From NCBI GenBank assembly GCA_943736015.1, contig OX031062.1, positions 436,501 through 500,500 of the forward strand: DNA of 64,000 nt, given 5' to 3'. The notes beneath the pieces are model-generated. The model was not told where the DNA came from and did no database searches. It saw only the letters and a list, made by a program, of their open reading frames with translations. The position numbers were made by a program, and so were the translations under genes. Source of the stretch: Tridacna crocea. Taxonomy: Eukaryota > Mollusca > Bivalvia > Cardiida > Cardiidae. Shown here in pieces: positions 558-40,465 of the stretch (position 1 is the stretch's first letter; each line of letters opens with the position of its first letter).

Positions 558-703
558 GAGAGCGCTGTACTTCAAGTACAACTGTTATCGGCCTATAGTC
601 GGCCAGTATGTTACCATCAGAAACTTTGACGATCCGGACCCGACCCACATAAGCGGAAATAACTTCCGGTTTGAAATTGCTGAGATAGAGGTCCTCGTAA
701 AAC
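558..703 (+). CDS. Receptor exon: end of a fucolectin (FTP)/F5-8C-like lectin domain
   Basis: The exon starts after TTTATAG (phase 2) and ends before GTATGT (phase 1). It codes for [20 protein letters not shown] and a following stretch ending [11 protein letters not shown] cysteine, then G-x-YVTI, then an acidic ExEV strand is the typical end of fucolectin-tachylectin-pentraxin domains, which bind fucose with Ca2+. The start of the domain must lie upstream of the window. A different donor at 697 (GTAAAA, phase 0) exists but would not match the phase of the next exon at 2240. Confidence 0.65.
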
Positions 704-3700
704 GTATGTCATTTCTTTAGCTCTTAACTAGACAATAGACCACTGAAACTCCATTGGTCAATCACAGAACACTAAACATGTTCAATTCTTGATCATCGAA
801 TACCGTCAGTAGAAAAAGCACATTTGTGCTATATTTAGTAACGGTGTCTAATGAAAATTTCGGTCTTTCGTGATAGACTAAAGAGACTTCACAGGTTTGT
901 GACTAGGCAACCACAAGCGTTTACCACACTTGAGAAGACATTTAGAAAACGTGACCAGTATTCTCTTTTTTCCCCACAGTGTTTTCAAAAAACTACTTTG
1001 ACAGGTTCTTGACAACACGGTATTGCTTATGAAAAGATAAGGAAGGATAAAACTTCTTGAACTCTTTTCTAAGGGGCTTCAAATAATGACATTTGTGTAT
1101 GAGGGAGTAGAATTTTGCGACCCTAAACCTTGTAACTAACATTTCCTAACTTCCCTACAATGTCTTCAAACATCTATTTGTCAGCCCAGCCTCGCTGAAC
1201 TTTCTTTCCAGCCTCTTAGGTCTGAAGCATGTGAGAAAATTAGTCGGTGGCTTGGAAAGAAATTGTGTCAGTACTGGGCTCGTATTCACCAACACTTCTG
1301 AAGAACAGCCTCAGCCTTATTCTCCAGAATTTTATACATTTGAAAGTAACACAACTTCTGATTGGCTAAACTAAATGGTTTAGCCAATCAGAAGTTGTGT
1401 TCCTTACAAATTTTGCAAACATTGGAGAATAAGACTAGGAATATTCTCAAGAACGGTTGGTGAATACGGGCCCAGGTCTAAGAAAGCAAGGAAACACATG
1501 AGTACGTCACTTATCGCCATATGACTTAAAATTGCCTTAAACACCAAAAGAAGCGACTAAACAAAACATTTTTGTCGTAGGCTTTAAAAACACTGAGGGT
1601 TATTTGATAAAATGTTAAATAAAGCAAAGCATTTTTAACGCAAAAGCCTTGAGCAAAGAGGACATGTATATAGAAAGCCCATTAAGGCTGTTGAGCTTAG
1701 GACAGAATTTAGGTTTCAAGTCTTGGATATATTGTATGCTGAATATTTAAACTGACAGGTCCCTTAACTTAACCCTTTCCCAAACAGTCCCTGGTTTTTA
1801 CGGGTCAGGAATAGAAGCCTTTTGAAAACATTGTAGGAAAAGGAGAAAATGCTGGTAACTAGCATTTTCTCCTTTTCCCACAATGTTTTCTACCCTATCA
1901 AATAGAAAAAAACATCTTTTTAGCGACTGTTAAGTTGTCATCTGCAGAATGCTATCAGGTTGGTGTGGTCCAAAATTTGCCTTTTGGGAAAGGGTTAACT
2001 GTGGCATACAATAAAACAGGCTTCAGAGTGCTCTTTAAATCAAAGTGACTTTTTCCAGTGCTGGAAAGACAGAAAAGACAATAAGTTAAAAAAAAATAGA
2101 ATTCTCTGCAGAATAAAGGAAAGTGTAGAACTAGGACCAGACTGCACGTCATGTTCAGTGTGATCTTGATTTTACACTATCCCGAGAAAGGCCGTCTGAT
2201 TTTGGTCAGTGTCATCAGCGAAAATAACATTTTTAACAGGTACGATCTGTAGAAGACGTATGGGTCTGGTATCTGGGGCAGTAAGGGACTTCCAACTTGG
2301 AGGTTCCACAGAAACAAACACGAACAGTTACGAAGATGGACGAATATTCAACGTGGGGGAAGGATGGTGCTCTGGACCAAATAGTCAATCATTTTTTGAG
2401 GTACATTTTCTATCCAAAATAACTAATCATACTCTGAGAAGTATTTTATTCCCAAACCGACCAACCATATTTTAGGTATATTTTCTTCCCCAAACGACCA
2501 ATCGTATTTTGAGGAACTTTTTTTCCGAAAACTTCCAATCATGTTTTGAGGAATATTTTCATCTCCAAACCACCAATCATATTTTGGGGAATGTTTTCTT
2601 CCCCGAACTAACCGTAATATTCCAAGAAAGATCTATATTTTCTTATAAAAACGACCAAACATATTTTGAGGCATGTTTTCTTGCCAAAAATCTTATTCCT
2701 CAAACGACCAATCATTTTTTGGAGAATGCTTTTTTCCCCAACCCACCAATCAAATTTTGAGGTATATTACTTTCTTAAAACGAGAAAGTATATTTTGTGG
2801 TATCTTTTCCCCCCCCCCAAACCGACCAATCACATTTTGAAGTATACTTTATTCCCAAAGCAGCACATCAAGCTACATATGAAGTTGATCTTTCCCTAAA
2901 CATGATCAAACTAATATATTACAATATTTTCTATCAAGAAATTGAAGTGATTTATGAGGCACAATAAATAATCCACGAGGGCAAAAACGCAAGTGATTTA
3001 TTCATTGCATCTCGTAAGTAATGACGATAAGCCACAATAGACAAAAGATTATTTCGATTCAAATATTACAACTCTTAATGAAAAGAAAACAGGTTCATAT
3101 TTAAAGTAAAAACGCGGATGCAGATTATATTCCACTGAATAACTTATTTATATAGAGTGACGTCACTCTGCGAGAATACGTACACAGAACAACGTAGAAT
3201 AGCGTATATATATAGTTACTTTACCCACGGATGAGGCGTTAAAATATAACTAGCCGAAACATGTTTGGTTTTATTTAGAATTCATTAAATTCATTACATT
3301 CAAAGGCGTGTGACGTTTTAATATATCAGTTTAACCACCAAACCTTGTGTCGGACCGGCATCTGCCGACCTGTTTTGTTTCTGTCTGTATATGTATATAT
3401 TCCATGTGCCTTTTTTTCAGAAATGTTATGGGTAAAGAAATGTCGCAATTTAGGCTGGAGGAATTTTTCCCCGTCACAGTGAATATTTTCCTCCTGCCGA
3501 AAATCTGGAACTACTTTTTTGTTCTATTTGAGATCGCTAGTTTTAAAAGGTGGCATTCGTTGACAAAATAATCAGAAGATATATAATATATAATTTTTTG
3601 CATCAGTTTGTGGTTAATGTGGGAAAATAATTGCCTCAAAAGGGAAAGGTCCGTGAAAATAACTCGTTATTTTCGTATACCTTTCCCTTTTTAGGCAAAT

Positions 3701-6700
3701 ATTTCCCCATATTAACCACAAGCTGATAAAATAAATTCTATAGAATAAGGTAGATTTTATCACGCTTTAGTTGCAATGTGTTTTTAAAGCCACGTTATGT
3801 TAGAATATATTATAAAGGCCTACAGATATTGATGTTGCTATACAATAAAACAAAGTTATACAAATCATTTTAACTGCTCATCACTAAACTACAAAGATTT
3901 CACAAATACAATTTTTTGGAATTGTACGGTTTATACACATATAATCCCTGATACACCCAAAAGTATGCACTGGCATTAAGTTGGACAAATATTTACTAAA
4001 ATCGTGAAGTTATGCTAACCTAAACTGCGTACAAAATATTTTGTGTGTGTGCAGTTAATTGACAGGCCGCCGAAAGGACCCAAGACGAAGCAAAGTTTCA
4101 AATCTGAGTTGTTCATTCGAGCTCGCAATATTCACAGGTTATGACGTGTATGGTTTCAACAAGAATTTATCTTTAAAACACATTCTTTGTGACTCTATCT
4201 CTGGTACTTTTTCCAAAAGGTGGATATGATTGTTCCAGTCGTAATTGATGGTATAGAGATTCAAGGCTCGAGAGACAGCGGTAACATAAACCTTGTCAGA
4301 GAGTTCTACCTTGAGTTTGGTGTGGAGGATGGAAAGTTTGTCAATTATACAACGCCTACGGGACAAACCAAGGTGATGCTTCCGTTGCTTGTTTAGCGAA
4401 ACGTTTGATAAATTGTCTTGGTTCTTTGAAAACAAAACTCGGGTTTGCTATATCTGAAAAAGTAACAACCAAGGTCAACCTCTGGAACGATGATTTTGTA
4501 ACATTTTGTTTTTTTTAAGTCATTATCTACCTGTATGTTGTCAGATTGATAGTTGGTGTATTAACTCGAATAGTTAATTTGTGGAATGTTCTATTGTTTT
4601 ACAATGAAGATATTCCATGAAAATATTATTTTCGACTTAGTTCAAGATACCAGAAGTCAATACCTTGAAGACAGCTTTGGATTTAGCACTGCCAAAAAGG
4701 TTTAGGAAATCATAGTCAGGTGCTTTATTTGTCATGAAGTAGTTTCTGAAGTATCGGGCAAGCACAAATTACATTTAACACGAAGATGAGATTGGGTTTA
4801 ATTATTTCGAAGAAAAGGTTGAGGTATCTACAAAGCCTTGTCGTCTACATTGTCATCTGCGCCATCGTCATGCCAAAACATTGTTACCATTCTCGCAAAA
4901 CGTGATCATATGGGAACTGCGAAAAGTGTCGACCCTGGTCAGACTGGGCGGATTGTGCACGCTTACCATAATCAAAACTTTTCACTTGATGAAAATCGGT
5001 CATTCCACCTTATTTTACAATCATTTTTGAACTTTTAACTTAAACCGGCCTTTAATTTCTTTGATCTGTTTTCATGTAATTGACGTACGAAATTCCCAGG
5101 TTGTCTCTTTTCCCGCGACGAGTCACATTTACATTTAATAGTATCTCTGTCATTAATGAAAATTGCTTCAACGTCGGAACACTTCTTAATTATCAAAACA
5201 GAAACTCATACAACAGTACGTAACTATCAAAATATTTTTGACTCAGTTTCTTTCGACTAAGAATTTTCACTGCATATTAATCTAACTCTAAAAGAATCTG
5301 AAGCATACCGTAGGTACTCGTATGCGTTGCCCTTCTTTTGCTTTCTCTAGATTTCATTTATTATATTTTCAGATTTTCAGAACCGATCAAAATGCACCAC
5401 TAGAAATGCTTATCAGGTATATGTTTCAAAAACCATTTGTTGCACGAAAATTGCGGCTACAAATTGTCAAGCCTACGAATGATGTTTGTTTAAAACTCGA
5501 AGTGATTGGGTGTCCGAAAAGAGGTGAGAGTATTTTATAGTTTATTTCTTTTGAATTTATTTCATGATAATGAAGTATTTTCACAACTCATATGTAGTAA
5601 GACGATATGTCTTTTTCATTAGAATTCTGTCGAGCCCCAGCCTTGTGCCGGTGAACCTAGGATATACATGAATAAGCGAGGTGTCGCAATGAAGTAATTA
5701 AGATAGTGTTAAAAGTAGCGTAAAACACCCTTCAACCAACCAACCAACCAACCAACCAACCAACCAATCAAACAACCAGTTGATTGATTAGTCTGTCAAA
5801 GATAAATAACATATTACTTTTCAGTTGTTCGAGATCTGTATTGTAAAGATGATGACGTCACTACATACGGATACGAGGCAGTGACAAATACCGTATTTTG
5901 GATAGAAAAAATTCCGAGGTTCTACAACCTCACCGTGGATCAATGTCTTGATCTTTGTGATGGCACGCAGAACTGTATTGGCACACTACACAGCAACAAT
6001 TGGTGTTCCCTGACCGCCTCCTCGCGATACAATCCTCACTACCAACAATGGGTCGTGAAGAAACTGGACGAGCTAGACAGTAGAACTTTTACAAAGCTAT
6101 GTGTTAAAGGTATTTAGTTCTAATTGTGTCAATCCACTCATTTCTTTCTACATTAAACATAGAGTGAAATTCACAATCTTTGACCCTCTACTGTACCTTT
6201 GTTACCAATTCCACAGCATTGGTGTTTGTTTCTTTCAGTTGAAGTACACCAGATGCTGAAAAAATGTTACCTCAACTGTTTTGCCTTTTAAGCTATTTCC
6301 TTTCAAGCGCACAAGGTACCATTTAAAACATTTACGTGATTAAAGACACTTCCTGGTGGTAGATAATGTTCTGTTTTTGTGGACATAGGCAGAAATAGTG
6401 TCCCAAGAATGAACAATCTTGCAGTCAGTTCCCACAAAGATCATCAAATGAACACCAGAAACATGTTCTAAACCTGTTAGTGTATGTGTGAGTTATTCCT
6501 TTTCACTCTCTGTTTTATATTCAGCTTCGGTTATCTTTTCTTCACATCCAGCCTCTGTTAAATCATGCTTACTGGTTGTACACTTTGTTAGAGTTGTACA
6601 TATCATGCATATATCACCTGTTACTTTCTATTGTAACTGATATTAAGCCAATGTTGAATTTTCTGCTAGTTATACAAGGTGTACAATAGATATCATTGTG

Positions 6701-9700: not shown

Positions 9701-12700
9701 AAACTATGTAAAGCCAGTTTCCCTTTTGAGTGCCCCGTAAACATCACTACACGTGCAACATCCAAAATGACGGCGTCGATCGATCACAAGACTGCACGTT
9801 GATGCAACAAACTGCACGTTTTAGTGACATCAGTTTCCGGTAACGTCAGTTTTCATTGAATTGGGGCACTCTGAAGGGAATTTCTATTGCGTCAGCATAC
9901 TCGATTCGTGAGATTATAAAACATGAAAATTTCGCTTAACGCGCTTTGAAAGGGTAAAACTTTGCAGTATAATGAATTCGTTGTACGGTCAGGTGGTAGG
10001 GGACTTGGAAACGTGATTCACCACAGCCGTGAACAAGTCTCCAAGTCCCCTGCCACCTGACTATACAACTAATAATTTTTCACTCTCTTGCACTCCGGAT
10101 CATTACATTCACCTCTGTAGTGGGCTCAGAAAGTAATTCGTCATTACGTCATATTTTTGTCACATGACCATAACTCAAAATGCCTACACAAACGCTGGTA
10201 AAAGAAAGACCAATATCGATTGTTTCGTGTGCTGTTCAAACAGCATGGGACCAGTCAGACTTAGTGATAGGAAATGAACAAAAGAGGGATTTCCTGAAAA
10301 GCCTACATATCTTTAAAGGACGATAACTTGATGTTTAATCGTTCAAACTTAGATCCAGCGGTGTGCCAAATCAGTTGTCATCATTCAAGGGCGCAGCCAT
10401 TTTTGTTAAAATCGGCGTAAGATTCTGAAAAGTGAAGAGGCTCGAAAATAATAGTTCCATTTTATACAGGTAAATTCATCAGTTTGAACGCACCTATAAT
10501 GTATCTAGAATCATATTTCCTTTGTCTAACTTACAATTTTACATACAGGTATGAAACAGTTAAACAGTAACAAAACATCTTTTTCCTCGGTTTGACAAGA
10601 TTTTTGTCATTTAGCCCATCGCAGAGATGTATGTGAGGTAACGAACGACAACTCTGCTCGGAGATTGATAATTTTTAGCCTCGTTTATCATATCTGCTGG
10701 TTGTAAAACGGTTATCATGTTTATTTCAGACATAGCTGACTATACAAAGTGTAACAGCATCATTATGGAGCCGACGGTTTTAGTTTCACCTTCCTATCCG
10801 CTGTACTATGGTATGTTACTAGATTGTCATTGGGAGATACATTTTCCGGAAGGGTCCTTTGTACGGGTAGAAATACAGGATCTGTACTTACCAAAGCCTG
10901 TCTCAACCACAGAACTCAGAGAGGTACAGTGTGGTCTTTCCTAGGATTGAATTAAGTGATTTATGAACATGTTATCCTGAAACTTCTGGAAGGGCAAGTG
11001 TGTTTGGAATGCTGGTCAATCCCTTTTTGAAACTCTTTACGACTTCAATCTAATTTGTGTAAGGATTTACTTTTTTTCGGACGGCGTTTCCATCAAAACA
11101 AAAACAATACAACAAATCTCCGTAGTTGCTCTATTGAGAGTTTCAAGATAGGCCATATGAATTTTTTGTATTTTCTAGAACAGTTTCTGGTCATGTAATT
11201 AACCCTTACAGGATGTTACACTCGTGTTCACAATATATTGAATTTATTTAACTCGTTATCTATAAGTAGAAAAAAGTCGACAAACCTTGTTTAAATCTTG
11301 TTGATAACTTGTCTAATAATTCAAATACGTACAAGGCCCTATTTTTCTTACAACCATTGATAAATCTACCACTTCTTTCAAACAGGAAATCAAATCATAC
11401 GTTATTATTGATTTGGAAAATCAACAAAATCAGTGTTTTCTCTTTTGTCCAGTAAGATTGGAAAATCATTGTTTTTTAGGGGGTTTAAAAGATATGGGAT
11501 CGTTTGGTGAAGGGTTGCATAAGGGACCTTGTCCTAAACTTCCTTTTCCTTGTAGATCGGGTACTATGACGTCAGTATAGGCAGCTGCACAGACCAGTTA
11601 ATGCTCGACAATCTTATCATTGACCATACAAATCAACATGGCTACAGCCGCTCTCTACTGGTGTCCGAGTCCAACCACTTGGTTATTCAACTGAAGTCCT
11701 GTGCTAGGTACGCCGTAGCAGATGATCTAAGTGGGTTTAGAATGGTTATTTCACAATCAGGTAAATACAATATCAAACTTTTAGCACAGGCACTACCTAA
11801 ACAACGTCACCATAATGCTGGTGCCAAAACATTGTTGCAGTTAGTTTTCAGAGAATATTTTAAGTCTAAAAAGGAACAAAAGCATGTGTTTGTTACCTGC
11901 CTCTATTGTATATTCCCCTTTTTATACAAGTAGTCCGAACTTGAAATAAATATCTCCAGATGTTGTAAAGATATTATAAAATTTCAAAGTTTTGTTTTTA
12001 CATGACGACATCTATGACGACGCTGCAGACGGAGTAGACGTCGACGGTAAGGCTTTGGCAATAACTCGACGTTTTCTCCAAAAACAGCCGAGTTAACTCG
12101 CTGGAAAGCGATATAAACTTTCGATTCTCTTGAGAGATCATTCATAACATACCGAATATATAAGGAAAATATCTGCATCCCTGAACATTTCCTTACTTTC
12201 CGAGGAAAAAGAACTGTATACTGATTTTTTTTCTTGGTATCACTTTAACCCTTTACCAAACAACAAAATTTTAGACTGGTTCAAATTGAAAGCACTTGCA
12301 GACGACAGATTAAACGTAAATCGAAAATTGAAATTCCAGCAGGGTAGAAAACATTGTGGCAAAAGGAGAAAATGCTGGGTACTAGCATTTTCTCCTTTTC
12401 CTACAATGTTTCAAAAGGCTTCTTTCTCAGGGTCGTAAAAAACAGGGATTGTTTGGTAAAGGCTTAACAAATAAGTTTACAGAAAATACATGTTTAGAGA
12501 AAATGAAAAAAAAATCGTATCTGACAATATCAAATACAGTCCTTAAGTGAATGGTGTCTTAGCCCACTTAAGAAATGCTTTCAGATTTACGCCACATTTG
12601 ATTGGTTAAAATTTTACTCCACGCGTAATATTAACCCGCCGTTTATATGAAAAATGTTTTTGCAAACTTTACCGGTATTTGTTTAGATTTCAAATGGCAT

Positions 12701-21700: not shown

Positions 21701-21840
21701 GTTACGATGAAACTTGTACCTCCCACGCTAGGGTGTGTGACAATTACTATGATTGCAGTGGACGTTTCTATGAGGATGAAATTCAAGAGGACTGCAATTT
21801 AAATTCTCGGTATTTATCTATTTTACTCCATTTACTTATC

Positions 21841-21887
<47 letters not shown>

Positions 21888-30800: not shown

Positions 30801-33800
30801 ACATGTCTTCCAGTGTAAACTGGTTGTCAAGCTGGGTTTACAAAATGTCCAAACTCCTACTATATATGTAACGAAGGTGTCAGGCGTTTTGCACAGTCTG
30901 GGTCCGTATTTACCAACCATTCTTCAGAATGTTCTTAGTCTTCAAGATTTTCTGACTGTGAAAGTAGCAGAACTTCTGACTGCCTAAACTAAATGTTTTA
31001 GTCAATCAGAAGTTCTGTTACTTTCACGTTGATGAAATTCTGAAGAATAAGACTGAGAAGGTTCTGAAGAATGGTTAGTTTAGTTTAAACATATTTATTT
31101 TCCCTCAAATTTACATGGAAATGGGGTTGGGTCACAAGTTATAACAACTTAGAAATCGACCCTCCCCCTACAATATAATGAATTTACAAGTGTTCCACAA
31201 CAATTATAATACACAAGAAAGAGATATAGAGAGAAGGAGAGACAGACAGATAGACAGACAGACAGACAGTCAGAACGACAGACAGACAGACATACAAACA
31301 AACAGACAGACATAGATTTTGTCCATTTGCTCACTATAGTAAATAGGAAAAATCAGAGCATACGACACTATGTTTATATCAAGTAAATCGGCCAGTTTTT
31401 TTTAACATACTCCTGGACTGATACAAATAATTCTGAATTTTCTCGATCTGTTAGGGATGGTTTGCCAAAAAGATCATCTACATTCAATGGATTAAGGTGC
31501 TGAATAGAATTAAATAAGTGCAGTCTTTGGATAACAAAAAGATTGCATCTGAAAAAATAGTGTTCAGCGTCTTCAGGTTCCACCGAGCAAGTGCAAAGCT
31601 GACTGTTACGAAGATAATTATGAAACAAATCACTATTTAGTCCACTGCATTTATTCCTAATCCGGGCATGCATAACTGATAAGAAACGATTGCCTTCAAG
31701 GTAATAGGCGGGACAGGGGTTAATGGGAACCTACTTGAAAAATGGTTGGTGAATACAGACCCAGATTGTGCAAAACGCCTGACACCATTTCGTTACAAAT
31801 ATAGCAGGAGTTTGGACATTTTGTTAACCCAGCTTGACAACCAGTTTACTCTGAAAGATCTCAGATCTACACTGAATTAAAAAAAGACTCAATTTATTCA
31901 AGTAACATTCACAATTACGTCCTTCAGAGCATACGGACTGTCAGACCGGGTTTACAAAATGTCCGAACTCCTACTGTATTTGGAATGGTTTGGTGTGTGA
32001 CGGCGTCAGCCATTGTCCCAGCGGTGAAGATGAAATTGATTGTGGTTAGTATGTTACCTATATCCCTTTATACACGTAAGCCTATGTTTAATACATCTTG
32101 AACTACATTTCTTGAGATACGGTTATAGAATAGAAAAAAGAAAACATCTGACATTCGTAGGCTTTGAAGTATTCTTTATTTACATGTAGGTCGTCCATAA
32201 ACAATGCTCTTAATTAAACTACCAAAAGCTTTCTTAATAACACTTCTAGACTCGTTTGACATAATTTCTTCTCAAATGCTCATGTCAGATCCGATGATAG
32301 ATGCGTTTCAACTTCTTGGCAGCCATTCATCTGAATCTGTACGTTGATTCAGAGTTTCAAGACTCTCAGATGTTTGCATCCAAGCTAAAAAATATATTGT
32401 ACTTTTGGTGTATCAGTCATATTAGCACTGAGTATCTGTCGTCTATTTAAACCATTTAGCGAGGATCTCTGGTCACTCCTTATGACCATTCTAGTTAGAA
32501 CTTACCGTCCCATAGTTGTACTGTATTGTCAGTTTACTTCCAAAAACCTCGTAACTATAACTTGTAACAAGCTGTAGTTACGATGTTTTCGAAGTAAATC
32601 GACGGTATGTATCAAATGAAGTACAACGCAATACTGTTTTCCATCCTTCCTTTATCCCGATTCCCTGCATGCCTTTCAACAATCAATCTTTCTCTGTTTT
32701 ATCATTATTATTTTCTTTGTTTCCATGCACACGACAGTACTGTTTAGAATCCTTTCATTGTAGCAAATCACCTCTCTACCAAACGAAAACTTACTAGGAT
32801 TTAAAAACGTAAATCATATATATATATTATTATTTTATAATTAAAGTTATAAAATCAAACTAGTGAATTTATCCATTTTTCTCCAGGTACACGACAGTAC
32901 TGTTTGGACTCATTCCATTGTCGCGAATCTGCTCTCTGCCTACCAACATCCAATGTTTGTGATGATGTGGTACATTGTCCTCTGGCTGATGACGAGCTAC
33001 TATGTAACATCTCCTGTCCCATTGGCTGCACTTGTGATAAACGCTCAATGATCTGTGACGACCTTATCTTTCAAAACATGTCTCTAACTGCAAGCTTCAG
33101 TAGAAGTATATCGGAAACTCGGATTTTGAAAGTGCAATTGTCTTTTGATCTAGGTCATTTAAGTAGATTTATAGGTTTAACTCACCTTGATCTGTCATCT
33201 TCAGGGCTCTCCAGATTAGTGTCGGGACAATTTCGATTTGCAAATAATCTTATTTATCTGGACCTGAGTCACAATTATATCACTGAAATACCACCAGCTA
33301 CTTTTGATGGTTTATCTAAACTCTCGACTCTGAACCTTATTGGAAACCCATTGACAAGATTAACGTTTAACGCATTTATTGGTCTTACAGCTCTAACAGA
33401 GCTTGACTTATCTGGTTTTTCTCTTGGTGAACTAAGAACTGAGATGTTTGCAGGTTTGATATCGCTTCGACGGCTGAATCTAAGTTCTAGTAATATTGAT
33501 GAGGCAGACGATAACACTTTCGAGCCTCTACAGTCTCTAGAGACACTTGATCTTCGACAAAATGAAATACTAAACTTTGGGAAATATATGTTTTATGGCC
33601 TAGATTCTTTGGGCTACCTCTATGTCGACTCCTTCACACTGTGTTGTATTAAACCAGCCGACCTTCCAGATGAGCAATGTGTTTCACCTAAGAATGAATT
33701 CTCTTCTTGCAGTGATTTGTTGCGAAACGACATTCTGTCTGTCTGTATTTGGATCATTGGAATACTAGCTACTGTCGGAAATACAATTGTTTTAGTGATA

Positions 33801-36800
33801 AGGTTTGTACTGGATAAAGATGGCTTGAAAAAGACGTATAACGTTTTTGTTTGTAATTTGAGTATCGCTGACTGTTTCATGGGGGTTTATCTCATTATCT
33901 TGGGCATTGCTGACGCTGTGTTTAGAGGCGAGTACACGTGGAATGATTTCCAATGGCGGAATGGAACAGCTTGCAAACTAGCTGGTATTATTTCAACAAT
34001 TGCCAGCGAAGGCTCTGTCATTTTTCTTTGCCTTATCACGATCGATAGACTTCTTGTGGTGAAGTTTCCATTCGGTAATGTAAGAATAAGACGGTCTATG
34101 AGTATATACCTGTCTTTGTTAATCTGGGTTGCGGTTCTATTATTAGCTTGTATTCCCTTAATTGGGGAAGCATATTATGATTGGTCCTTTTATTCACGGT
34201 CCGCTGTATGCTTGCCCCTACCACTGACCAGAGATCGACCAATCGGATACGAGTATGGTGTTGGTCTGTTCATTGTCTTCAATTTCATCGCGTTTCTACT
34301 GATTGCTACGGCTCAGGTTGTTATTTACCTTGAAATATCCTCCACAAGAAACAGCGTGGCTTCGAAAGGACGTCGAGTTGATATCTCAGTGGCCAGAAAA
34401 CTCTTCTTCGTCGCTATAACTGACTTCATGTGCTGGTTTCCAATCGGCCTAATGGGTAGGTGCTGTTTATCTTCACAAATACTGCAAAGCTATTCGTTAG
34501 GTAACATATGGAAGGATAAAAAAATCCGATTTAGTGTCAGGGCTTTCAGATTAAATAAAGAAAACATACCACATTTAAAACTGTGCTAAAAGCTAATGAC
34601 ATAAAGCTGTAGGCCCTATTCAAATCAATAAATTTTGTCAAACCTGTACCGACGGTAGTTTTTCGTCAAAAGGTGCACCCTTTCTGGCCGAAACTTCAAA
34701 TTTATTAATACGCTCAAAAAGCTTCTAATTTTTTGTTATCAGTGGTTCGTAGGTCTTTAAGGATATGTATAATAAGACTTGGTATCAATTTTTATATTCT
34801 CAACGTCTAAATATCCCGAAATGTTTTGTGCTAATTTTTTCATCATTATCAAGTAGCATGATCGTTAATTGAAAGGTGATTTAAGGTGAACTTTACGCCT
34901 TGATAGCAGTGATTCTCCTGCCTATGTTCTTAATACTTGAAAAATTGATGCTAAAGGTTTACGTGGAACTAATATATCAGATTTATACTGTATAAAGGGG
35001 GCTTAATTCATCTGCAAAAAGTATCGACTCAGGTCAGCCTGCTTCCTGAGTCAAATTTGCTATTTGAAGACTTTCTGTTTGTTCAAAGATCATTCTACCT
35101 AGCGATTCACTTACTTGTTAGATAGATTGGATTTAGTAGATACAGAATTATGTGATAGTTTGTTTGGTTTAAAGCATCACTGAAGTGCTTAAACCTCCTT
35201 TTGCCAGAGCTCATACACTTTTCTTATACTGTTTTTACATTTCGTCGGTTTACTTTAAGAACATTGTAACTAGAGCTTGTAATAAGCCATAGTTACGAGG
35301 TTTTAGAAGTAAACCGCCTATTTGTTTGATTATTACAAGGTATCATTGACCCTAGATGGATGGATTATTTCAGGTAAAAGGTACACCTGAGTGGGTGTTT
35401 TTGTTCTGTCCACTGAGTTGGAAATGAATCTCTTTTTTTAAAAAATGATATGTTAGATGTAAGAGAAAAAAATGATCAAAGACATTATTTTATTTTTGTT
35501 ATCACCAGGTATCATGGCCCCAAACAGGTGATATCAGGTGATGTGTGCACCTGGAAAGAAGTATTCTTCCCACCATCTTAATCAGCTATGAATTCTTTTA
35601 CTGGCTGACTTTTTAAGAGTAAGTGCAACAAATTATCAAATGCATTGTTTCATTTTTGTTCAATCATTATCAGGTATCATGGCCCTAAATGGACAGGTTA
35701 TATCAGGCGAGGTGTATGCTTGGATAGCAGTGTTTGTTTTGCCTATCAACTCAGCTCTGAATCCATTCCTCTACACACTGGGATCCTCCATATCGCAAAT
35801 GGTAAGATTTACAATATTATCAATATATCTGTCAAGCCACATGGTGTTTCATAGGTAGTTTGTTTGTGTATCGCTTGGTGCAGAGCCTGTATACACCAGA
35901 GACTCCAAACTGCATTTTCACTCTTGAGCGTTTTTGAAATTTCAAAGCAAAACAACTTGTGATAGGCTAAACCAATTGGTTGGCCAGTCAAAAATGCGTT
36001 TCTTTCAAAATTTCAGATAATGATTGAATAAGACAATGGAGTGGTAGTGAATACAAACTGAAACAATCATTTTCCGGTGTAATCTGCAGACATAATCGTT
36101 CATGAATACTTGAAATATGATTGAATTATAATTGGAAAGAACTTCGCCGGAAGTGGTATATACCGCATAAAATACCTGAAATTGTTGTTGTTTCATGTTT
36201 TCTTTTTTATTTCTTTGTGTTTTTGTTTGTTTATTATTTCTTTACTTTTTTAGAGGGGAGGCGGAGAGGGGCATGGAACTTTGTGCAATCGGGAAAATAA
36301 TGTGAAAATAGTTTCAGATCTGGAAAAAGATATCTAAGTAGTTAAAAGACGCATTTGTCGCAAGAAAAGCATTGAATAGTTTATATTTTCATTTTTCAAT
36401 TGTGTTGGATATAACTGCCTATGGATCACCAAGAAAAGTTTATACCTTTACAAAAAGGACGTGTTTTATCGATAACATTGTAGAGAAAGAAGTAAATCCA
36501 GGTAACCTGTATGATCTTTTTTCCTCCATTACTTTTTGTACCTCATGAAAATAGACATTATTATTTGAGCACCATTTTATATGTGACTGCAAATATTATG
36601 CATTTGGACGTATATAAATTGCTTTTTTCGTTTAGTAGAGAAAGAAACATATGCTAAACAGGAAGCTACTTTATGTTTCAGGTAAACAGGATGGAGGGAA
36701 AATTGACACGAACAAAATCATCAAGGAAAGGTTCGTATATTTTATTTACATTAAACCTTTAACTCTTTCCCAAACAATCCCTGGTTTTTACGGGTCTGGA

Positions 36801-39800: not shown

Positions 39801-40465
39801 AACGTGAACACATCAGAACTGAGATTTATCAACATAAAATGTTGTTAGTCAAGTTTCCACTCAATAATCTTTGGTCCGTATTCACAAACTGTTCTTTAAG
39901 ATATTCTTTGTCTTATTTTCCGTGATTTTCTAAAGTTGCAATTAATATAACTTCTGATTGACTAAACCGTTTGGTTAACCAAATCAGAAATTGTGTTACT
40001 TTCAAAATAAGATTATCAGAACATAATACGCTGAGGGCGACTCACTGATCTTTTGCGGACAGTGTAGATCAAGATCAGACTGCACAGAACATGCAGTCTG
40101 ATCTTTGATCTGCACTGTCCGATAAGTAGATATTATTATACAAAACATAACTCTGAAGTATTAGTATTTCAGTTTTTACTGTCGAGTAGAAAATTTTACT
40201 TTAGTTATTTAGAAGGATAAGTACTAAAGAATGGTCGGTGAATATAGAGCCTGGTTATATCTGGTTTATCAACATAAAATGGGTCTGTTTGTTTGGACTA
40301 AATGTCAGTGTTCTTTCTTTTTTTTTTATCTCACTTCAGAAAATCAACCGGGTCATGTTGAGAAGTTCCCCGTTAGTTTGTATGGATGAAGAGGACTTTA
40401 AGAAAGACATAGAAGATTTTGGGTGTATGCTTCGTGGACTGATCCGACAGGTCGATAAAAACTAA
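558..40465 (+). CDS. Multidomain GRL101/LGR-type G-protein-coupled receptor (5' incomplete, 27 exons)
   Basis: Exons: 558-703, 2240-2400, 4220-4372, 5373-5523, 5825-6109, 10730-10923, 11556-11760, 12932-13095, 13605-13884, 14477-14689, 15118-15196, 15994-16166, 16956-17108, 19022-19141, 20771-20887, 21674-21809, 22373-22449, 26310-26634, 28907-29091, 29538-29675, 31928-32044, 32887-34455, 35674-35801, 36682-36730, 37996-38123, 39165-39278, 40340-40465. Every junction has AG/GT borders and matching phase, and the joined frame is open for 1,894 residues to TAA. Known family: Lymnaea GRL101 combines LDLa modules, LRRs and a 7TM region, and relaxin receptors are relatives. The extra F5/8C, PAN, CUB, C-type lectin and fibrinogen-like modules upstream are what is unusual. 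Inference: a plasma-membrane receptor that binds glycans, lipoproteins or microbes and signals through G proteins. Ligand unknown; start codon and signal peptide lie upstream of the window. Confidence 0.88.
1276..1473. mobile_element. Hairpin MITE family 4 (GTATTCACCAACC ends)
   Basis: Ends CTCGTATTCACCAAC and GGTTGGTGAATACGGG are inverted; inside, AACACAACTTCTGATTGGCT and AGCCAATCAGAAGTTGTGTT form the hairpin arms. Related copies: 30905-31080 (split by a LINE), 39874-40020, 43940-44095, 44684-44866, 45665-45835, 49985-50105 (half) and 55028-55221. Confidence 0.75.
1773..1994. mobile_element. TTAA-flanked hairpin MITE copy
   Basis: TTAA at 1769-1772 and 1995-1998; ends CCCTTTCCCAAAC / inverted GGGAAAGGG; core GTAGGAAAAGGAGAAAATGC...CTCCTTTTCCCACAATG. 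Confidence 0.8.
2240..5523 (+). CDS. Receptor exons: F5/8 type C (discoidin) domain
   Basis: Three exons, 2240-2400, 4220-4372 and 5373-5523, joined in phase 0, give one F5/8C domain of about 155 residues. The first carries the opening motif ([18 protein letters not shown]) and a Trp-Cys (GWCSG). The second continues with a [13 protein letters not shown] strand, equivalent to the QVDL...v.GI.iQG core, and an [12 protein letters not shown] strand. The third ends [20 protein letters not shown] followed by VIGC, the usual closing cysteine. Discoidin domains bind phospholipids or glycans. The middle exon is easy to miss because it has no ATG and the opposite strand is open there over a longer stretch. 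Confidence 0.8.
2381..2860 (+). repeat. 37-38-bp degenerate minisatellite grown from an exon/intron junction
   Basis: About 12 diverged units begin with forms of CCAATCAT, run through TTTTGAGGTATATTTTC and end in CCCCAAAC. Starts are near 2384, 2421, 2458, 2497, 2533, 2570, 2608, 2652, 2705, 2743, 2781 and 2823. The first unit spans the end of the F5/8C exon (CAATCATTTTTTGAG) and its splice donor (GTACATTTTC), so the array contains repeated donor-like sites. Confidence 0.75.
3595..3740. mobile_element. Hairpin family 6 (GGTTAATGTGGGAAAATA arms)
   Basis: TTGTGGTTAATGTGGG and, at the far end, CCCCATATTAACCACAAG pair; AAAAGGGAAAGGTCCG and the complement lie inside. Flanks (AAATGTTATGGGTAAAGAAA; TAATCAGAAGA) recur at 54235-54560, where only one arm is kept. 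Confidence 0.65.
5733..5770 (+). repeat. (CCAA)n microsatellite
   Basis: About nine CCAA units at the end of what looks like a SINE tail (GTAGCGTAAAACACCC just before). Confidence 0.85.
5825..6109 (+). CDS. Receptor exon: PAN/apple-like domain
   Basis: A single 285-nt exon, phase 1 at both ends, between TTTTCAG and GTATTT. It encodes about 95 residues with cysteines spaced as in PAN/apple domains: YCKDDD at the start, then a helix [26 protein letters not shown], and a final TKLCVK. The helix pattern C-x3-C-x5-C is typical. PAN domains bind protein or carbohydrate ligands. Being symmetric (1-1), the exon is a self-contained module that could be shuffled. Confidence 0.7.
9105..9440. repeat. 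Dispersed palindromic repeat, copy 1
   Basis: ATGAAAAGATATCTCACGAG and its complement (GAGTGAGATATTTTTCATAT) form a hairpin, followed by an A/T-rich part and AGGAAGTGAAAGTTAATATC. The same arrangement lies reversed at 60480-60830, and a worn relative at about 17390-17900. Confidence 0.65.
9630..9967. mobile_element. TA-flanked MITE, CTGCAAAG ends, copy 1
   Basis: The element runs from CTGCAAAG to CTTTGCAG with TA on each side. A second copy lies at 61003-61388 in the opposite orientation, with shared inner blocks (CATCCAAAATG; GTCGATCGATCA-like). TA flanks fit mariner/Tc1-type insertion. Confidence 0.75.
10079..10671. repeat. About 590-bp dispersed repeat, copy 1
   Basis: From TCACTCTCTTGCACTCCGG to AACTCTGCTCGGAGATTG this segment matches 58798-59368 on the opposite strand along its whole length with only scattered differences. 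Shared blocks include GGTGTGCCAAATCAGTTGTC and ATTTTTGTCATTTAGCCCAT. No coding potential seen. Confidence 0.8.
10730..11760 (+). CDS. Receptor exons: CUB domain 1
   Basis: Exons 10730-10923 and 11556-11760 meet in phase 0 at [13 protein letters not shown]. The protein has CNSII...[20 protein letters not shown]: a first cysteine, the 'SP.YP..Y' turn and the C.W.I strand of CUB domains. It then has VRVEIQDL, a TDQLML acidic turn, HLVIQLKSC and [11 protein letters not shown] domains are beta-sandwiches common in developmental and complement proteins. A Ca2+ site (Glu/Asp/Asp) is plausible but not certain from the sequence. Confidence 0.75.
12249..12463. mobile_element. TTAA-flanked hairpin MITE copy
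   Basis: TTAA flanks at 12245-12248 and 12464-12467; same core palindrome, opposite orientation to the copy at 1773. It lies in the intron between the two CUB domains. Confidence 0.78.
12932..13884 (+). CDS. Receptor exons: CUB domain 2
   Basis: Exons 12932-13095 and 13605-13884 join in phase 0 at IVITFK|VLDLQS. The first gives [20 protein letters not shown] and [20 protein letters not shown], a clear CUB opening (C..., NPGFP.P..., CRWKI). The second supplies [12 protein letters not shown], the [12 protein letters not shown] loop and a terminal [12 protein letters not shown] strand. The first exon has no ATG in its true frame; in another frame the same bases are open for longer, which hides it. 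The last 12 residues (EVTNSTGFG) are a linker to the lectin domain. Confidence 0.8.
14477..16166 (+). CDS. Receptor exons: C-type lectin domain with QPD motif
   Basis: Exons 14477-14689, 15118-15196 and 15994-16166 (phases 1, 2) give a long-form CTLD. It starts [19 protein letters not shown], has the [20 protein letters not shown] helix, [38 protein letters not shown] and ends RFICEY. QPD is the loop that in vertebrate and invertebrate lectins marks galactose-type, Ca2+-dependent binding. The WND triad is here WHD, so one Ca2+ ligand is changed. NSSST after the domain is a likely N-glycosylated linker. Confidence 0.85.
16956..17108 (+). CDS. Receptor exon: LDLa module 1 (lacks Cys1 and Cys3)
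   Basis: The exon is phase 1-1 and codes for [20 protein letters not shown] followed by [12 protein letters not shown]. The Ca2+ cage residues (D..DC.DGSDE) are intact, but only four of the six LDLa cysteines are present. The two missing, Cys1 and Cys3, normally pair with each other, so the remaining pairs (2-5, 4-6) can still form. A palindromic element begins about 12 nt into the next intron. Confidence 0.85.
17121..17384. mobile_element. Palindromic element with GGATTAGCCTGCGCAG hairpins, copy 1
   Basis: Inverted outer ends (GTGTGCAAC... / ...GTGTTGCGTTCC; GGGACATTCGGACAT) enclose two inner hairpins built on GATTAGCCTGCGCAGTCCGC. It starts about 12 nt after the LDLa-1 exon's splice donor. 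A second copy lies at 42687-42952. Confidence 0.75.
17484..17704. mobile_element. TTAA-flanked hairpin MITE copy
   Basis: Intact TTAA flanks (17480-17483; 17705-17708) and ends CCCTTTCCCAAAC / GTTTGGGAAAGGG; core palindrome nearly perfect. Confidence 0.82.
18735..18949 (+). repeat. Minisatellite: five 43-bp units, each a small hairpin
   Basis: Exactly five 43-bp units starting CATAGTTCATGTCAGCCTGT. Each contains TCAGCCTGT...ACAGGCTGA, an inverted repeat, with few changes between units (GACA/AAAG in the loop; one TTGACG). It ends 72 nt before the LDLa-2 exon. Confidence 0.9.
19022..19141 (+). CDS. Receptor exon: LDLa module 2
   Basis: The exon, phase 1-1, encodes [20 protein letters not shown] followed by [18 protein letters not shown]. 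All six cysteines and the acidic Ca2+ cage (D..DCKDGSDE) are canonical. It is a typical 39-40-residue lipoprotein/ligand-binding module coded by one symmetric exon. Confidence 0.92.
19764..19985. mobile_element. TTAA-flanked hairpin MITE copy (right flank decayed)
   Basis: TTAA at 19760-19763; the right flank reads GTAA. Core GTGGGAAAAGGAGAAAATGC plus its complement is intact. Confidence 0.75.
20168..20389. mobile_element. TTAA-flanked hairpin MITE, variant subfamily
   Basis: TTAA at both ends (20164-20167; 20390-20393). The loop is CTCGTTACGAGCA rather than CTGGTAACCAGCA, as in the copy at 59805, so at least two subfamilies exist. Confidence 0.75.
20771..20887 (+). CDS. Receptor exon: LDLa module 3
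   Basis: The exon (phase 1-1) codes for [20 protein letters not shown] then [19 protein letters not shown]. It has six cysteines and a complete DCFDGSDE Ca2+ cage. The basic side chains before the cage suggest it is not a classic acidic-face lipoprotein binder, but this is inference. Confidence 0.92.
21105..21460. mobile_element. Hairpin family 5 copy
   Basis: The palindrome 21125-21245 (GAGTTATGAGGCACAATAAA ... CGCCTCATAACTCAC) is followed by the usual tail with AAAACGCGGATGAAGATTATG and GACGTCACTCTA. It lies in the intron between LDLa modules 3 and 4. Confidence 0.68.
21674..21809 (+). CDS. Receptor exon: LDLa module 4 (degenerate cage)
   Basis: The exon starts in phase 1 and ends in phase 2 before GTATTT. 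It encodes [20 protein letters not shown] then [20 protein letters not shown]. Six cysteines are present but the DGSDE cage is replaced by a longer [11 protein letters not shown] stretch, so Ca2+ binding is doubtful. The change of phase (1 to 2) marks the switch from tandem LDLa exons to the fibrinogen-like domain. An (ATT)n microsatellite follows about 35 nt into the intron. Confidence 0.82.
21846..21905 (+). repeat. (ATT)n microsatellite
   Basis: A run of ATT units with interruptions, 36 nt into the intron after LDLa module 4. Confidence 0.85.
22373..29091 (+). CDS. Receptor exons: fibrinogen-like domain of neurexin-IV/CNTNAP type
   Basis: Exons 22373-22449, 26310-26634 and 28907-29091 join in phases 1 and 2. 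The product opens [20 protein letters not shown], then [85 protein letters not shown] and [10 protein letters not shown]. The order V-x-C-F, V-I-x-H-x-x-E, C-x-Q...C, C-x-C...C-x-C, LP(V/I)..V...D and GPL.C matches the fibrinogen-like domain of neurexin IV/contactin-associated proteins. The first intron holds a 3.08-kb foldback element and a SINE-like repeat, so the 77-nt opening exon lies 3.9 kb from the rest. Confidence 0.75.
22536..22830 (-). repeat. tRNA-derived SINE, minus strand, diverged
   Basis: It shares the body of the copy at 45365 (plus-strand words GATTGTGTGGT, GTGCACCT, CTGGCTGCTTTTCCA and GAAAGAAATTGGTCG) but the tRNA-like head is worn (ATCGGTAGCGTACTGG; TTGATCCTAGG). Confidence 0.6.
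23002..26079. mobile_element. Foldback element with minisatellite arms and 8-bp target duplication
   Basis: TATTTGAC flanks the element at 22994-23001 and 26080-26087. The ends are inverted (GG....AGGACATTTGCCCC on both sides). Each arm starts with a degenerate array of GGACATCTGCCCC-type units (23002-23545; 25775-26079 in reverse) and continues into a non-repetitive inverted segment to about 23830 and from about 25530. The middle holds further nested palindromes (24140/24880; 24765-24860; 25010-25080) and no ORF that looks like a transposase, so it is non-autonomous. An 8-bp duplication fits hAT- or P-like integration. It sits in the intron of the fibrinogen-like domain. Confidence 0.85.
26635..28906. 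other. Receptor intron, mostly featureless
   Basis: Inside the fibrinogen-like domain. Apart from the MITE at 28240-28431 nothing is recognised. Confidence 0.6.
28240..28431. mobile_element. MITE with perfect 67-bp core palindrome
   Basis: Outer inverted ends GCTCCAGATAGAGGGAGTGA / CACTCCCTCTTATCTGGAGC. The core, 28307-28373, is a perfect inverted repeat with a single-base centre (arm CCTATGTTGTGGGTACTCAT, then TAGAATCGTCTCG). No second copy is seen in this window. Confidence 0.75.
29401..29515 (+). pseudogene. Dead tandem copy of the LDLa-5 exon
   Basis: The segment repeats the next 115 nt, including the acceptor (CTTTCAGAGATCGA). It reads [10 protein letters not shown] and then TAA, where the live exon has a cysteine codon, followed by [14 protein letters not shown]. 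The offset between copies is 117 nt. The stop and the lost cysteine show it is not a usable exon. Confidence 0.85.
29538..29675 (+). CDS. Receptor exon: atypical LDLa-like module 5
   Basis: The exon (phase 1-1) encodes a [20 protein letters not shown] stretch, then [20 protein letters not shown] and EQCG. The spacing fits an LDLa module lacking Cys1 and Cys3, as in module 1, with CRDLSHLE in place of C.DGSDE. A dead copy of the same exon lies directly upstream (29401-29515). Assignment to LDLa is by pattern and position only. Confidence 0.7.
30225..30446. mobile_element. TTAA-flanked hairpin MITE copy
   Basis: TTAA at 30221-30224; right flank decayed (TTTA). Core present with mismatches. Confidence 0.72.
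30805..30905 (+). pseudogene. Decayed copy of the LDLa-6 exon (plus orientation)
   Basis: Bases around GGGTTTACAAAATGTCC and AACTCCTACT match the live exon at 31928 closely; in that frame it would read [12 protein letters not shown]. Downstream similarity fades after GGTGTCAGGCG. It sits directly against the left end of a hairpin element. Confidence 0.7.
30905..31080. mobile_element. Hairpin MITE family 4 copy, interrupted at its right end
   Basis: The left end (CCGTATTTACCAACCATTC) is complete; the right end stops at CTGAAGAATGGTTAG and resumes at 31735 (AAAATGGTTGGTGAATACAG) after a LINE insertion. Outside both ends lie inverted copies of an LDLa exon. Confidence 0.72.
31239..31312 (+). 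repeat. (GACA)n microsatellite
   Basis: Interrupted GACA/GATA/CAGA run at the 3' side of the minus-strand LINE fragment; it may be the remnant of its tail. Confidence 0.8.
31374..31731 (-). mobile_element. 3' end of a non-LTR retrotransposon (LINE) reverse-transcriptase ORF
   Basis: Minus-strand reading gives [53 protein letters not shown] and ends at a stop at 31374. The pattern LHaRLR..CS.Ln.DLf followed by C.C...ED..H.FF.C is the zinc-knuckle-like C-terminus seen at the end of many LINE reverse transcriptases. The rest of the element is missing; a 3' tail with a (GACA)n run follows to about 31090. It splits a hairpin element. Confidence 0.7.
31753..31858 (-). pseudogene. Decayed copy of the LDLa-6 exon (minus orientation)
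   Basis: Read on the minus strand, this segment has an acceptor-like CTTTCAGAG, a TAA just inside, then a stretch matching the live exon at 31928 and, more closely, the copy at 30805 (shared TAAACTGGTTGTCAAGCTGG). With 30805-30905 it forms the outer arms of a large inverted repeat around a hairpin element and a LINE fragment. Confidence 0.75.
31928..32044 (+). CDS. Receptor exon: LDLa module 6
   Basis: The exon, phase 1-1, encodes [20 protein letters not shown] then [17 protein letters not shown]. Six cysteines; the cage reads D..HCPSGEDE, so most acidic ligands are kept. It has no ATG in the true frame. Two decayed copies of it lie in opposite orientations 1.1 kb and 0.1 kb upstream. Confidence 0.85.
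32523..32608. mobile_element. Hairpin family 3 copy
   Basis: Palindrome with the centre ACCTCGTAACTATAACTTGT; lies in the intron before the LRR/7TM exon. Confidence 0.65.
32719..32785 (+). pseudogene. Truncated copy of the start of the LDLa-7 exon
   Basis: ACACGACAGTACTGTTT, then a CATTGT and a CTCTCTACCAA stretch, match the start of the live exon at 32887. The acceptor is lost (CCAGGT has become CCATGC) and the frame [17 protein letters not shown] runs into a TAG. The match ends after about 65 nt. Confidence 0.8.
32887..34455 (+). CDS. Receptor exon: LDLa 7, LRR N-cap, six LRRs, hinge and TM1-TM6
   Basis: A 1,569-nt exon holds most of the receptor core. In order: LDLa 7 ([14 protein letters not shown]...[10 protein letters not shown]), an LRR N-cap ([14 protein letters not shown]), six LRRs of about 24 residues (for example [19 protein letters not shown]), and a hinge [18 protein letters not shown] as in relaxin/LGR receptors. 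TM1 has GN; TM2 has NLSIAD; TM3 ends [12 protein letters not shown], where DRL replaces the DRY motif; TM4 has the family Trp; TM6 ends [11 protein letters not shown] with the CW.P switch. The exon ends in phase 1 just after TM6 (ATG G|GTAGGT). If that intron were kept, translation would run to a stop at 34589 and lose TM7 and the tail. Confidence 0.93.
35340..35432 (+). pseudogene. Dead copy 1 of the TM7 exon
   Basis: GGTATCATTGACCCTAGATGG and the following GGTACACC, GTGTTTTTGTTCTGTC and GAAATGAATCTC stretches align along the whole length of the live TM7 exon at 35674. In frame it hits TAA after ...MDYFR. The acceptor context (TTACAAG) is weak. Confidence 0.7.
35509..35612 (+). pseudogene. 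Dead copy 2 of the TM7 exon
   Basis: It begins GTATCATGGCCCCAAACAGG after ATCACCAG, and its upstream intron end (TTATTTTATTTTTGTT) also resembles that of the live exon. A small deletion brings TGA into frame after GIMAPNR. Later parts (ATCAGCTATGAATTCTTTTA) match the NSALNPFLY region of the live exon at reduced identity. Confidence 0.82.
35674..35801 (+). CDS. Receptor exon: TM7 with NPFLY motif
   Basis: The exon (phase 1 to 0) encodes [20 protein letters not shown] then [20 protein letters not shown] and QM. NPFLY is the NPxxY activation motif of rhodopsin-like receptors. It lies between CATTATCAG and GTAAGA. Two dead copies of the same exon precede it at 35340 and 35509. Confidence 0.93.
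36682..40465 (+). CDS. Receptor exons: C-terminal tail, kinase-C-lobe-like
   Basis: Exons 36682-36730, 37996-38123, 39165-39278 and 40340-40465 code for the cytoplasmic tail of about 138 residues. It begins with a basic stretch ([10 protein letters not shown]), then [12 protein letters not shown] and [11 protein letters not shown]. Next come [33 protein letters not shown] and finally [15 protein letters not shown] before TAA. The run from RIA..VSKAL..LHS..MVHG to DI.DFG.ML resembles the alphaE helix, catalytic loop and alphaF helix of protein kinases, with the HRD motif changed to HGR. Seen: the motif pattern. Inferred: a kinase-like fold without an N-lobe, surely inactive. Confidence 0.72.
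36763..36983. mobile_element. TTAA-flanked hairpin MITE copy
   Basis: TTAA at 36759-36762 and 36984-36987; ends and core as in the family. It lies 30 nt downstream of a 49-nt tail exon of the receptor. Confidence 0.78.
37208..37415. mobile_element. Hairpin MITE family 2 (GATCAAGATCAGACTGCA core)
   Basis: Inverted ends CCCTTAGGCTGCTAAG / ...CAGCAGGATAAGGG and a core palindrome GATCAGACTGCATAGAACGT-GCAGTCTGATC. Related copies: about 14272-14470, 20010-20110, 30690-30745 (core only), 40030-40221, 47483-47670 (reverse), 53343-53554, 63400-63450, 63545-63615 and 63720-63785. Confidence 0.72.
37455..37851. mobile_element. Inverted-repeat element with internal 37-bp tandem repeats
   Basis: Ends GGCCACGTTTTACTAAGGTA and (reverse) GGGCCCCGTTTTACTTAGGT. 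Inside lie four 37-bp units (37510-37657; CAACTATAATACAGTGGCAT...) and a palindrome around GTCATTTTAGAAAACTA and TAGTTTTCTAAAATGACC. Confidence 0.7.
38620..39140. mobile_element. Hairpin family 5 copy, reverse orientation
   Basis: The tail segments come first (CATAATCTTCATCCGCGTTT at about 38890), then the palindrome around GTTATGAGGCACATTAAAGA, ending CATAACTCACAACTGTGGC. Confidence 0.65.
40030..40221. mobile_element. Hairpin MITE family 2 copy
   Basis: GATCAAGATCAGACTGCACA and its complement form the core; the right part (TTATTTAGAAGGATAAG) matches the family end. It lies in the last intron of the receptor. Confidence 0.68.

Follow-up and report, generated by a model that had tools for sequence, protein, structure and literature searches.

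Type C2 LGRs, among them GRL101 of Lymnaea, combine several LDLa modules (up to 12) with LRRs and a class A 7TM bundle, and the available text of the sources describes no other modules in them (PMC8286064, PMC11863921, PMC4079206). RXFP1 (PDB 7tmw) has an LRR-hinge-7TM core, with LDLa placed before the LRRs in the accessible part of PMC4561518; it has one LDLa and no lectin-like modules. The nearest published design that we found is that of the GRL101-like receptors in the SudRes2 region of Biomphalaria sudanica, which the available text of PMC12297450 presents as clustered paralogues, LRR GPCRs with LDLa and an N-terminal C-type lectin (CTL) domain, and calls unique for that domain. The same text proposes that they recognize pathogens and links the region, which holds other genes too, to schistosome resistance; it describes no ApeC, kringle, FTP, F5/8C, PAN, CUB or fibrinogen-like block in them. 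ApeC-containing proteins are reported from molluscs and amphioxus (PMC9585378, PMC8361754, in the parts available), and those of mollusc groups 8 and 9 exceed ten domains (PMC9585378). The main text of that paper never uses the terms GPCR, 7tm or transmembrane; these two groups might nevertheless include the receptor described here, which is the main risk to its novelty. Lastly, amphioxus has GPCRs of the adhesion family, with a GPS domain, that carry CUB, LDLa, kringle or lectin domains (PMC2246102, available text).

Here we analyzed a window of 64,000 bases from the bivalve Tridacna crocea (C7:436501-500500 of a 1.05 Gb assembly), in which an earlier note had read a many-domain GPCR gene. 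That reading was confirmed, and the gene, hereafter gene A, is larger than first described. Its predicted ectodomain of ∼1900 residues runs in the order EGF-like, ApeC, kringle, FTP, F5/8C, PAN, two CUBs, C-type lectin, four LDLa, a questionable fibrinogen-like block, three LDLa and LRRs, followed by the 7TM. Gene A thus shares the several LDLa, LRRs and class A 7TM of GRL101, the LRR-hinge-7TM core of RXFP1 (7TM identity 32%), the C-type lectin domain and clustered paralogues of the SudRes2 receptors, the ApeC domain of the ApeC proteins, and some modules of the amphioxus adhesion GPCRs; unlike the last, it is class A and gave no GPS match. What sets it apart is the extreme ectodomain on a known type C LGR (GRL101-like) design, and we regard this ectodomain, with about ten types of fold ahead of a class A 7TM, as a clear case of construction by exon shuffling. 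The earlier note knew of no described receptor with this order, and we found none in the literature covered (mostly titles and abstract openings, few subscription papers, with the main ApeC survey, Li et al. 2021, outside it); however, a GRL101-like receptor with CTL, LDL and LRR has been published (PMC12297450, available text).

To define the gene in the window, we tabulated splice sites and frames for each candidate exon; the missing first F5/8C exon was then located at 2240-2400. The exon-by-exon listing gave 24 exons on the + strand over 558-40465, not the 27 counted earlier, although the claim of one open, phase-consistent frame held: every exon joint is in phase, and the frame encodes 1797 aa with a single terminal stop at 40465. 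The earlier coordinates fit the window, and gene A itself begins at least 17.6 kb to the left of it. All 24 exons are matched colinearly in a paralogue, gene B (E 1.5e-4 or better, 32-81% identity). The exons are as follows, with percentages giving identity to B and E values giving profile or sequence matches.

558..703, + strand: C-terminal end of an FTP (F5/8C-like) domain; 58%; the whole 4-exon FTP matches F5_F8_type_C at 3.6e-5, below cut-off
2240..2400, + strand: F5/8C a; 54%
4220..4372, + strand: F5/8C b; 42%
5373..5523, + strand: F5/8C c; 45%; whole domain matches Pfam F5_F8_type_C at 2.7e-10
5825..6109, + strand: PAN/apple-like; 33%, 6/6 Cys kept; PAN_1 6.2e-4 in B, only PAN_3 0.25 in gene A
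10730..10923, + strand: CUB1 a; 42%; CUB 2e-4 on the joined piece
11556..11760, + strand: CUB1 b; 42%
12932..13095, + strand: CUB2 a; CUB 1.5e-11 on the joined piece
13605..13884, + strand: CUB2 b; 32%
14477..14689, + strand: C-type lectin a; Lectin_C 6.3e-13 on the joined piece
15118..15196, + strand: C-type lectin b; 63%
15994..16166, + strand: C-type lectin c (QPD ... WHD, motifs read off the sequence); 55%
16956..17108, + strand: LDLa 1; 51% over 43 aa
19022..19141, + strand: LDLa 2, the best Ldl_recept_a stretch; 46%
20771..20887, + strand: LDLa 3; 63%
21674..21809, + strand: LDLa 4, with a phase-2 end; 48%
22373..22449, + strand: fibrinogen-like (?) 1, labelled by motif only; 43% over 21 aa, E 1.5e-4
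26310..26634, + strand: fibrinogen-like (?) 2, no profile match; 38%, 1.6e-17
28907..29091, + strand: fibrinogen-like (?) 3; 33%, 8.5e-11
29538..29675, + strand: LDLa 5, degenerate; 56%
31928..32044, + strand: LDLa 6; 61%, and 54% to a third copy, C
32887..34455, + strand: LDLa 7, LRRs, hinge and TM1-TM6; 55-56%; with the TM7 exon, RXFP1 2.2e-77
35674..35801, + strand: TM7; 79-81%; the 7tm_1 match spans the whole bundle
40340..40465, + strand: cytoplasmic tail and stop; 53%, 2.4e-9

Profile searches supported most of the domain order in the earlier note. The whole 1797-aa window protein matched Pfam LRR_8 (3.2e-28), Ldl_recept_a (3.6e-28, six stretches, whereas we read seven LDLa-like units), 7tm_1 (1.9e-27, profile positions 3-260 of 260), CUB (3.6e-15, two stretches) and F5_F8_type_C (4.7e-9); Lectin_C was absent from this whole-protein list and was found on the CTLD piece, as it was in B (2.3e-11). 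F5/8C, CUB x2, CTLD, LDLa, LRR and 7TM therefore stood by Pfam. PAN is weak by profile in gene A and reached 6.2e-4 in B, just below cut-off, and 9.7e-5 in C with PAN_1, and the FTP end and fibrinogen-like block have no profile match in gene A. The 49-aa FTP end alone gave no Pfam match; joined to its three upstream exons, the whole FTP matched F5_F8_type_C below the Pfam cut-off in both A (3.6e-5) and B (7e-6). The block between LDLa 4 and LDLa 5 gave no Pfam match in A or B, no NCBIfam match in A and nothing credible against the PDB by single sequence or A+B profile, and an AlphaFold model of one of its exons had a mean pLDDT of 39.5, too poor for a fold match; the label "fibrinogen-like", given by motif, is tentative. 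No hydrophobic segment (KD19 of 1.6 or more) was found outside the 7TM in A or B. The earlier proposal of symmetric-exon shuffling is supported: the modules are flanked on both sides by phase-1 introns, the exception being LDLa4 and the fibrinogen-like block, which have a phase-2 intron between them and form a symmetric unit only when taken together.

The gene extends beyond the window. A search of 110 kb to the left, with the upstream regions of A and B compared, revealed nine more 5' exons, encoding an EGF-like module, four exons of ApeC, a kringle and three of FTP; the ectodomain as read earlier was thus too small, since EGF-like, ApeC and kringle are also in it. Full gene A has 33 exons and 2261 aa (C7:418916-476965), with no internal stop or frame break. 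Its ApeC matched Pfam at 7.8e-20 over profile positions 1-208 of 208 (8.8e-24 in B, full profile), and 8/8 of its cysteines are common to B, in agreement with the eight conserved cysteines by which ApeC proteins are recognized; the three relatively conserved DXED motifs of ApeC number none in A and one in B. The kringle matched at 4.4e-11 in A and at 9.8e-8, just below cut-off, in B. The EGF-like exon gave no significant Pfam match, and six cysteines in it are common to A and B. A signal-peptide first exon of gene A was not found upstream, and a candidate in B had no credible partner in A. Genes A and B lie head to head, their EGF-like exons 22 kb apart (C7:396464-418916), so both starts are probably there.

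Gene B was first traced by a relative of the LRR-TM exon at C7:339443-340987 (minus strand, 56% identity). It occupies the minus strand from C7:396464 down to 336089, with 33 exons and 2246 aa, and has counterparts of 33/33 gene A exons in the same order at 49% identity overall, ranging from 33% in CUB2 to 79-81% in TM7. The weakest exon is FTP1 (E 0.15 in the genome fit, 6.9e-4 in a restricted comparison). Because the phases of A were imposed in fitting B, shared phase is not independent evidence; a fairer measure is the share of B exons for which the alignment predicted the exact position of both splice sites, 22/33. The donor of the EGF exon in B was assigned manually to GC, as the GT picked by the script gave a stop; with it, gene B has no internal stop or frame break. 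All of A's cysteines are kept in B in 15 of the 18 Cys-bearing blocks, the misses being CUB2 (4/5), the LRR-TM exon (18/22) and the tail (1/2). Across 14 blocks, synonymous sites between A and B are saturated (pS 0.75-1.08, exceeding 1 in the 41-codon tail), whereas pN lies at 0.31-0.48 per block and at 0.36 overall. The odd modules have thus been kept as protein rather than debris, under long selective retention. Inside gene B, the third ApeC exon has a second, partly decayed copy in inverted orientation (C7:392822-393043, +, 39% identity to A, one stop).

A third copy, locus C, lies on the minus strand at C7:6.92 Mb, 6.5 Mb away, with 48% identity to A in the 7TM; tblastn matched its CTLD, LDLa and LRR-7TM. 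From tblastn on the first 30 kb we had supposed that ApeC to CUB were added only in A and B; this was overturned when A+B exon profiles were run on 60 kb (C7:6922001-6982000) and placed EGF, ApeC, F5/8C and PAN in C. The control was the best opposite-strand match, at 0.031, with 44 such matches up to E 1. Profiles of 12/33 exons beat it at colinear places: EGF (3.3e-6), ApeC1 (4.9e-5), F5/8C b (1.1e-4), F5/8C c (9.5e-8), PAN (0.0039), CTLD a (0.0038), CTLD c (0.0012) and LDLa 1, 2, 3, 5 and 6. The tblastn matches to LRR-TM1-6 and TM7 bring the count to 14/33. LDLa 4, at its own place, ties with the control (0.031); F5/8C a (0.037), ApeC2, ApeC3, FTP1, the FTP end, CUB2 a and b and fibrinogen-like 1 are in the right order and not significant alone. 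This 60 kb search gave no significant colinear match for the kringle (not seen), FTP2, FTP3, CUB1b, CTLD b, fibrinogen-like 3, ApeC4 or the tail, and out-of-order matches as good as the control occurred for the FTP end (0.02), FTP3 (0.03) and a second EGF (0.03). Pfam on pieces of C was above cut-off for F5/8C (1.3e-9), ApeC (4.1e-8) and PAN_1, and below it for Lectin_C (3.4e-4) and CUB (0.013, with CUB1 present as a CUB-like frame only). Between the LDLa6 and LDLa7 exons of C there is a 241-aa open frame (C7:6924664, minus) with no Pfam match, which may be a further module or an unrelated element.

These genes probably form an old family of at least three members in the T. crocea genome, and the two related copies make the unusual domain combination of A look real and old rather than a misreading. 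Own-genome searches with the A ectodomain gave no further locus with this domain set among the matches listed; C itself was missing from one of these lists, which leaves room for more diverged copies. LGR-like loci were also seen at C16:14.36 Mb (six LDLa-like stretches in 10 kb), more distantly at C3:48.5 Mb, and as matches at C12:43.5 Mb. Viral contigs gave two pattern matches, none a relative, and bacterial genome contigs gave six, one of them a relative by LRRs only, in a Bacteriovorax bin.

We next considered the receptor class. The LDLa7-LRR-7TM part has RXFP1 as its best PDB match (E 2.2e-77), which bears out the earlier assignment to the GRL101/relaxin type, and chains of RXFP1, LGR4, LHCGR, TSHR and FSHR matched the 7TM among the best 60 of 462 PDB matches. 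With its 7tm_1 bundle, the product is a class A (rhodopsin) GPCR; the LRR ectodomain and LGR-type 7TM make it an LGR; LDLa7 within the LRR exon, with six more upstream, makes it type C; and it has the several LDLa modules that mark type C2 and GRL101. It is not an adhesion GPCR, as no GPS/GAIN or 7tm_2 match was obtained for the window protein (Pfam, E up to 10) or for paralogue B (E up to 1). A 7-row tree that included RXFP1 and another multi-LDLa gene from this genome, with long branches flagged and no named GRL101 among the rows, joined A, B and C in a clade (100/99) without fixing the position of this clade relative to those two. The best place for the gene, we suggest, is among the type C LGRs (GRL101-like), as a member whose ectodomain is extreme.

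That the locus is one receptor gene of this architecture is highly probable. A single gene with a single transcript is supported by module order, phase, the lack of an internal start exon common to A and B, and conservation between the paralogues. We weighed this against a mistaken join of two or more neighboring genes, such as one for a secreted lectin-like protein next to another for an LDLa-LRR receptor, to which we give only a small chance. Most inter-module joints are phase 1, so that phase alone is no proof of a join and such joints could link by chance; gene A is known from genomic sequence alone, its first exon was not found, and segmental copies of two adjacent genes would keep their order too. 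However, gene A has short introns at the critical joints and gene B moderate ones (CUB2-CTLD 592 and 1249 bases, CTLD-LDLa1 789 and 846, fibrinogen-like-LDLa5 446 and 1208), and a phase-2 intron links LDLa4 to the following block. A scan of introns for signal-peptide-like exons, confined to phase-1 donors, gave one in A and eight in B against five and five in antisense controls, none of them in the same intron of both. The shared order in B and C also argues against an accidental join: the earlier note would have counted homologues with the CUB/CTLD part as a separate gene against itself, but B has all blocks in order and C has ApeC, F5/8C, PAN and CTLD in order, with weak CUBs. Even less credible is a pseudogene or assembly artefact. 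Next to the intact TM7 and LDLa6 exons there are indeed additional, decayed copies; yet the 33 exons of A, and those of B with its one GC donor, are free of internal stops and frame breaks, and replacement sites have changed far less than silent sites throughout, so that this reading is already largely refuted.

As to how the receptor works, the explanation that we favor, at roughly even odds, is that of one type C (relaxin/GRL101-like) LGR whose distal modules capture and whose LDLa7-LRR-hinge unit signals. Distal modules would capture surface glycans, lipids or proteins and bring microbes or ligand to the receptor, and the membrane-proximal LDLa7-LRR-hinge unit would convert capture into G-protein activation, as proposed for RXFP1. 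LDLa7, LRRs, hinge and TM1-6 share one exon, so the switch is likely intact. We infer a surface location, a class of ligand and this activation route; after the RXFP1 model, the LDLa may act as a tethered agonist. The available text of PMC4561518 reports the LDLa of RXFP1/2 as an activator, not a ligand binder, and possibly a tethered ligand.

A chief role in sensing microbes or glycans has, in our estimate, slightly less than an even chance. CTLD, FTP and F5/8C domains can bind sugar or lipid, and WND is canonical in the CTLD, where gene A reads WHD. Amphioxus and mollusc ApeC proteins are reported to bind peptidoglycan (PMC8361754, PMC9585378), with amphioxus ACP3/5 bound to only one peptidoglycan type (PMC8361754), and QPD and EPN are given as the galactose and mannose motifs of C-type lectins (PMC5379193), all in the accessible parts of these papers. 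The CTLD motif is QPD in A, QPN in B and QPS in C, so sugar specificity may differ between copies; the few DXED motifs in ApeC and the WHD in the CTLD mean that peptidoglycan or sugar binding is not assured. To our knowledge, GPCRs are not usually regarded as receptors that directly recognize bacterial cell wall or microbial glycans. More tentatively still, the product could be the G-protein-coupled pattern-recognition receptor that the earlier note inferred, in which a peptidoglycan-type ApeC, a C-type lectin and several other folds that may bind glycans or lipids are wired in one polypeptide through the LDLa/LRR switch to a class A 7TM and microbe contact is read directly as a G-protein signal. 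A conserved receptor with ApeC and a C-type lectin ahead of a relaxin-receptor-type switch would make GPCR sensing of microbes directly testable and would suggest a class of ligands for the orphan GRL101-like receptors. It also bears on the snail locus, where GRL101-like receptors with a CTL domain are part of the region tied to schistosome resistance (PMC12297450, available text).

Against sensing, the nearest receptors with known ligands bind relaxin-like peptides, and a hormone receptor is a less likely alternative: the ligand of the LRRs would be an insulin/relaxin/IGF-like peptide, as it is in RXFP1 or has been suggested for GRL101, and the additional modules would serve only to anchor the receptor to matrix or modulate it. 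Consistent with this, the best PDB match over LRR and 7TM is RXFP1, GRL101 is posited as an IGF receptor in the available text of PMC8286064, and the LRR-TM part ranks among the most conserved (dN 0.40). The ApeC, CTLD and FTP blocks, however, are kept about equally (dN 0.40-0.43), which counts against a spacer role, since an idle spacer would not need such conservation, and the relaxin and GRL101 receptors are described with LDLa and LRR only in the parts available of PMC8286064, PMC11863921 and PMC4079206. We consider it rather improbable that the gene encodes a cell-adhesion, self/non-self, gamete or matrix receptor whose modules bind host cells or extracellular matrix. In keeping with such a role, adhesion and matrix proteins often carry F5/8C, CUB, PAN, kringle and EGF. 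Apextrin itself is reported from an apical extracellular matrix (PMC8361754, available text). Nothing specific tells against an adhesion role, which is indistinguishable from microbial sensing by sequence alone.

Several minor features of the window were also noted. Between the TM1-6 exon and the intact TM7 exon lie decayed TM7 exon copies at 34835-34925 and 35455-35546 (74-77% DNA identity to the exon region), with further copies seen by tblastn at 35346-35438 and 35525-35599; the reads examined contain in-frame stops. Introns adjacent to LDLa6 hold fragments of its exon, one inverted, and of the LDLa7 exon start (30825-30865; 31793-31855, inverted; 32716-32777; 79-88% DNA identity). The intron between fibrinogen-like exons 1 and 2 contains two inverted minisatellite arrays, 23009-23553 and 25774-26075, 2.2 kb apart, with the unit GGACATCTGCCCCCT and its complement, a pair that we take to resemble a foldback element. 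A short palindromic repeat, probably a MITE, recurs on both strands in the window (e.g., 1800-1900, 17446-17640, 19564-19920 and 44218-44516) and at the other loci analyzed. Downstream of the gene, an open frame on the minus strand at 45806-46348 has, by eye, a signal-peptide-like start; an 81-aa piece of it weakly matched vitelline membrane outer layer protein I (VOMI 0.0023, below cut-off), and the frames at 48619-48843 and 54709-54945 look similar to it.
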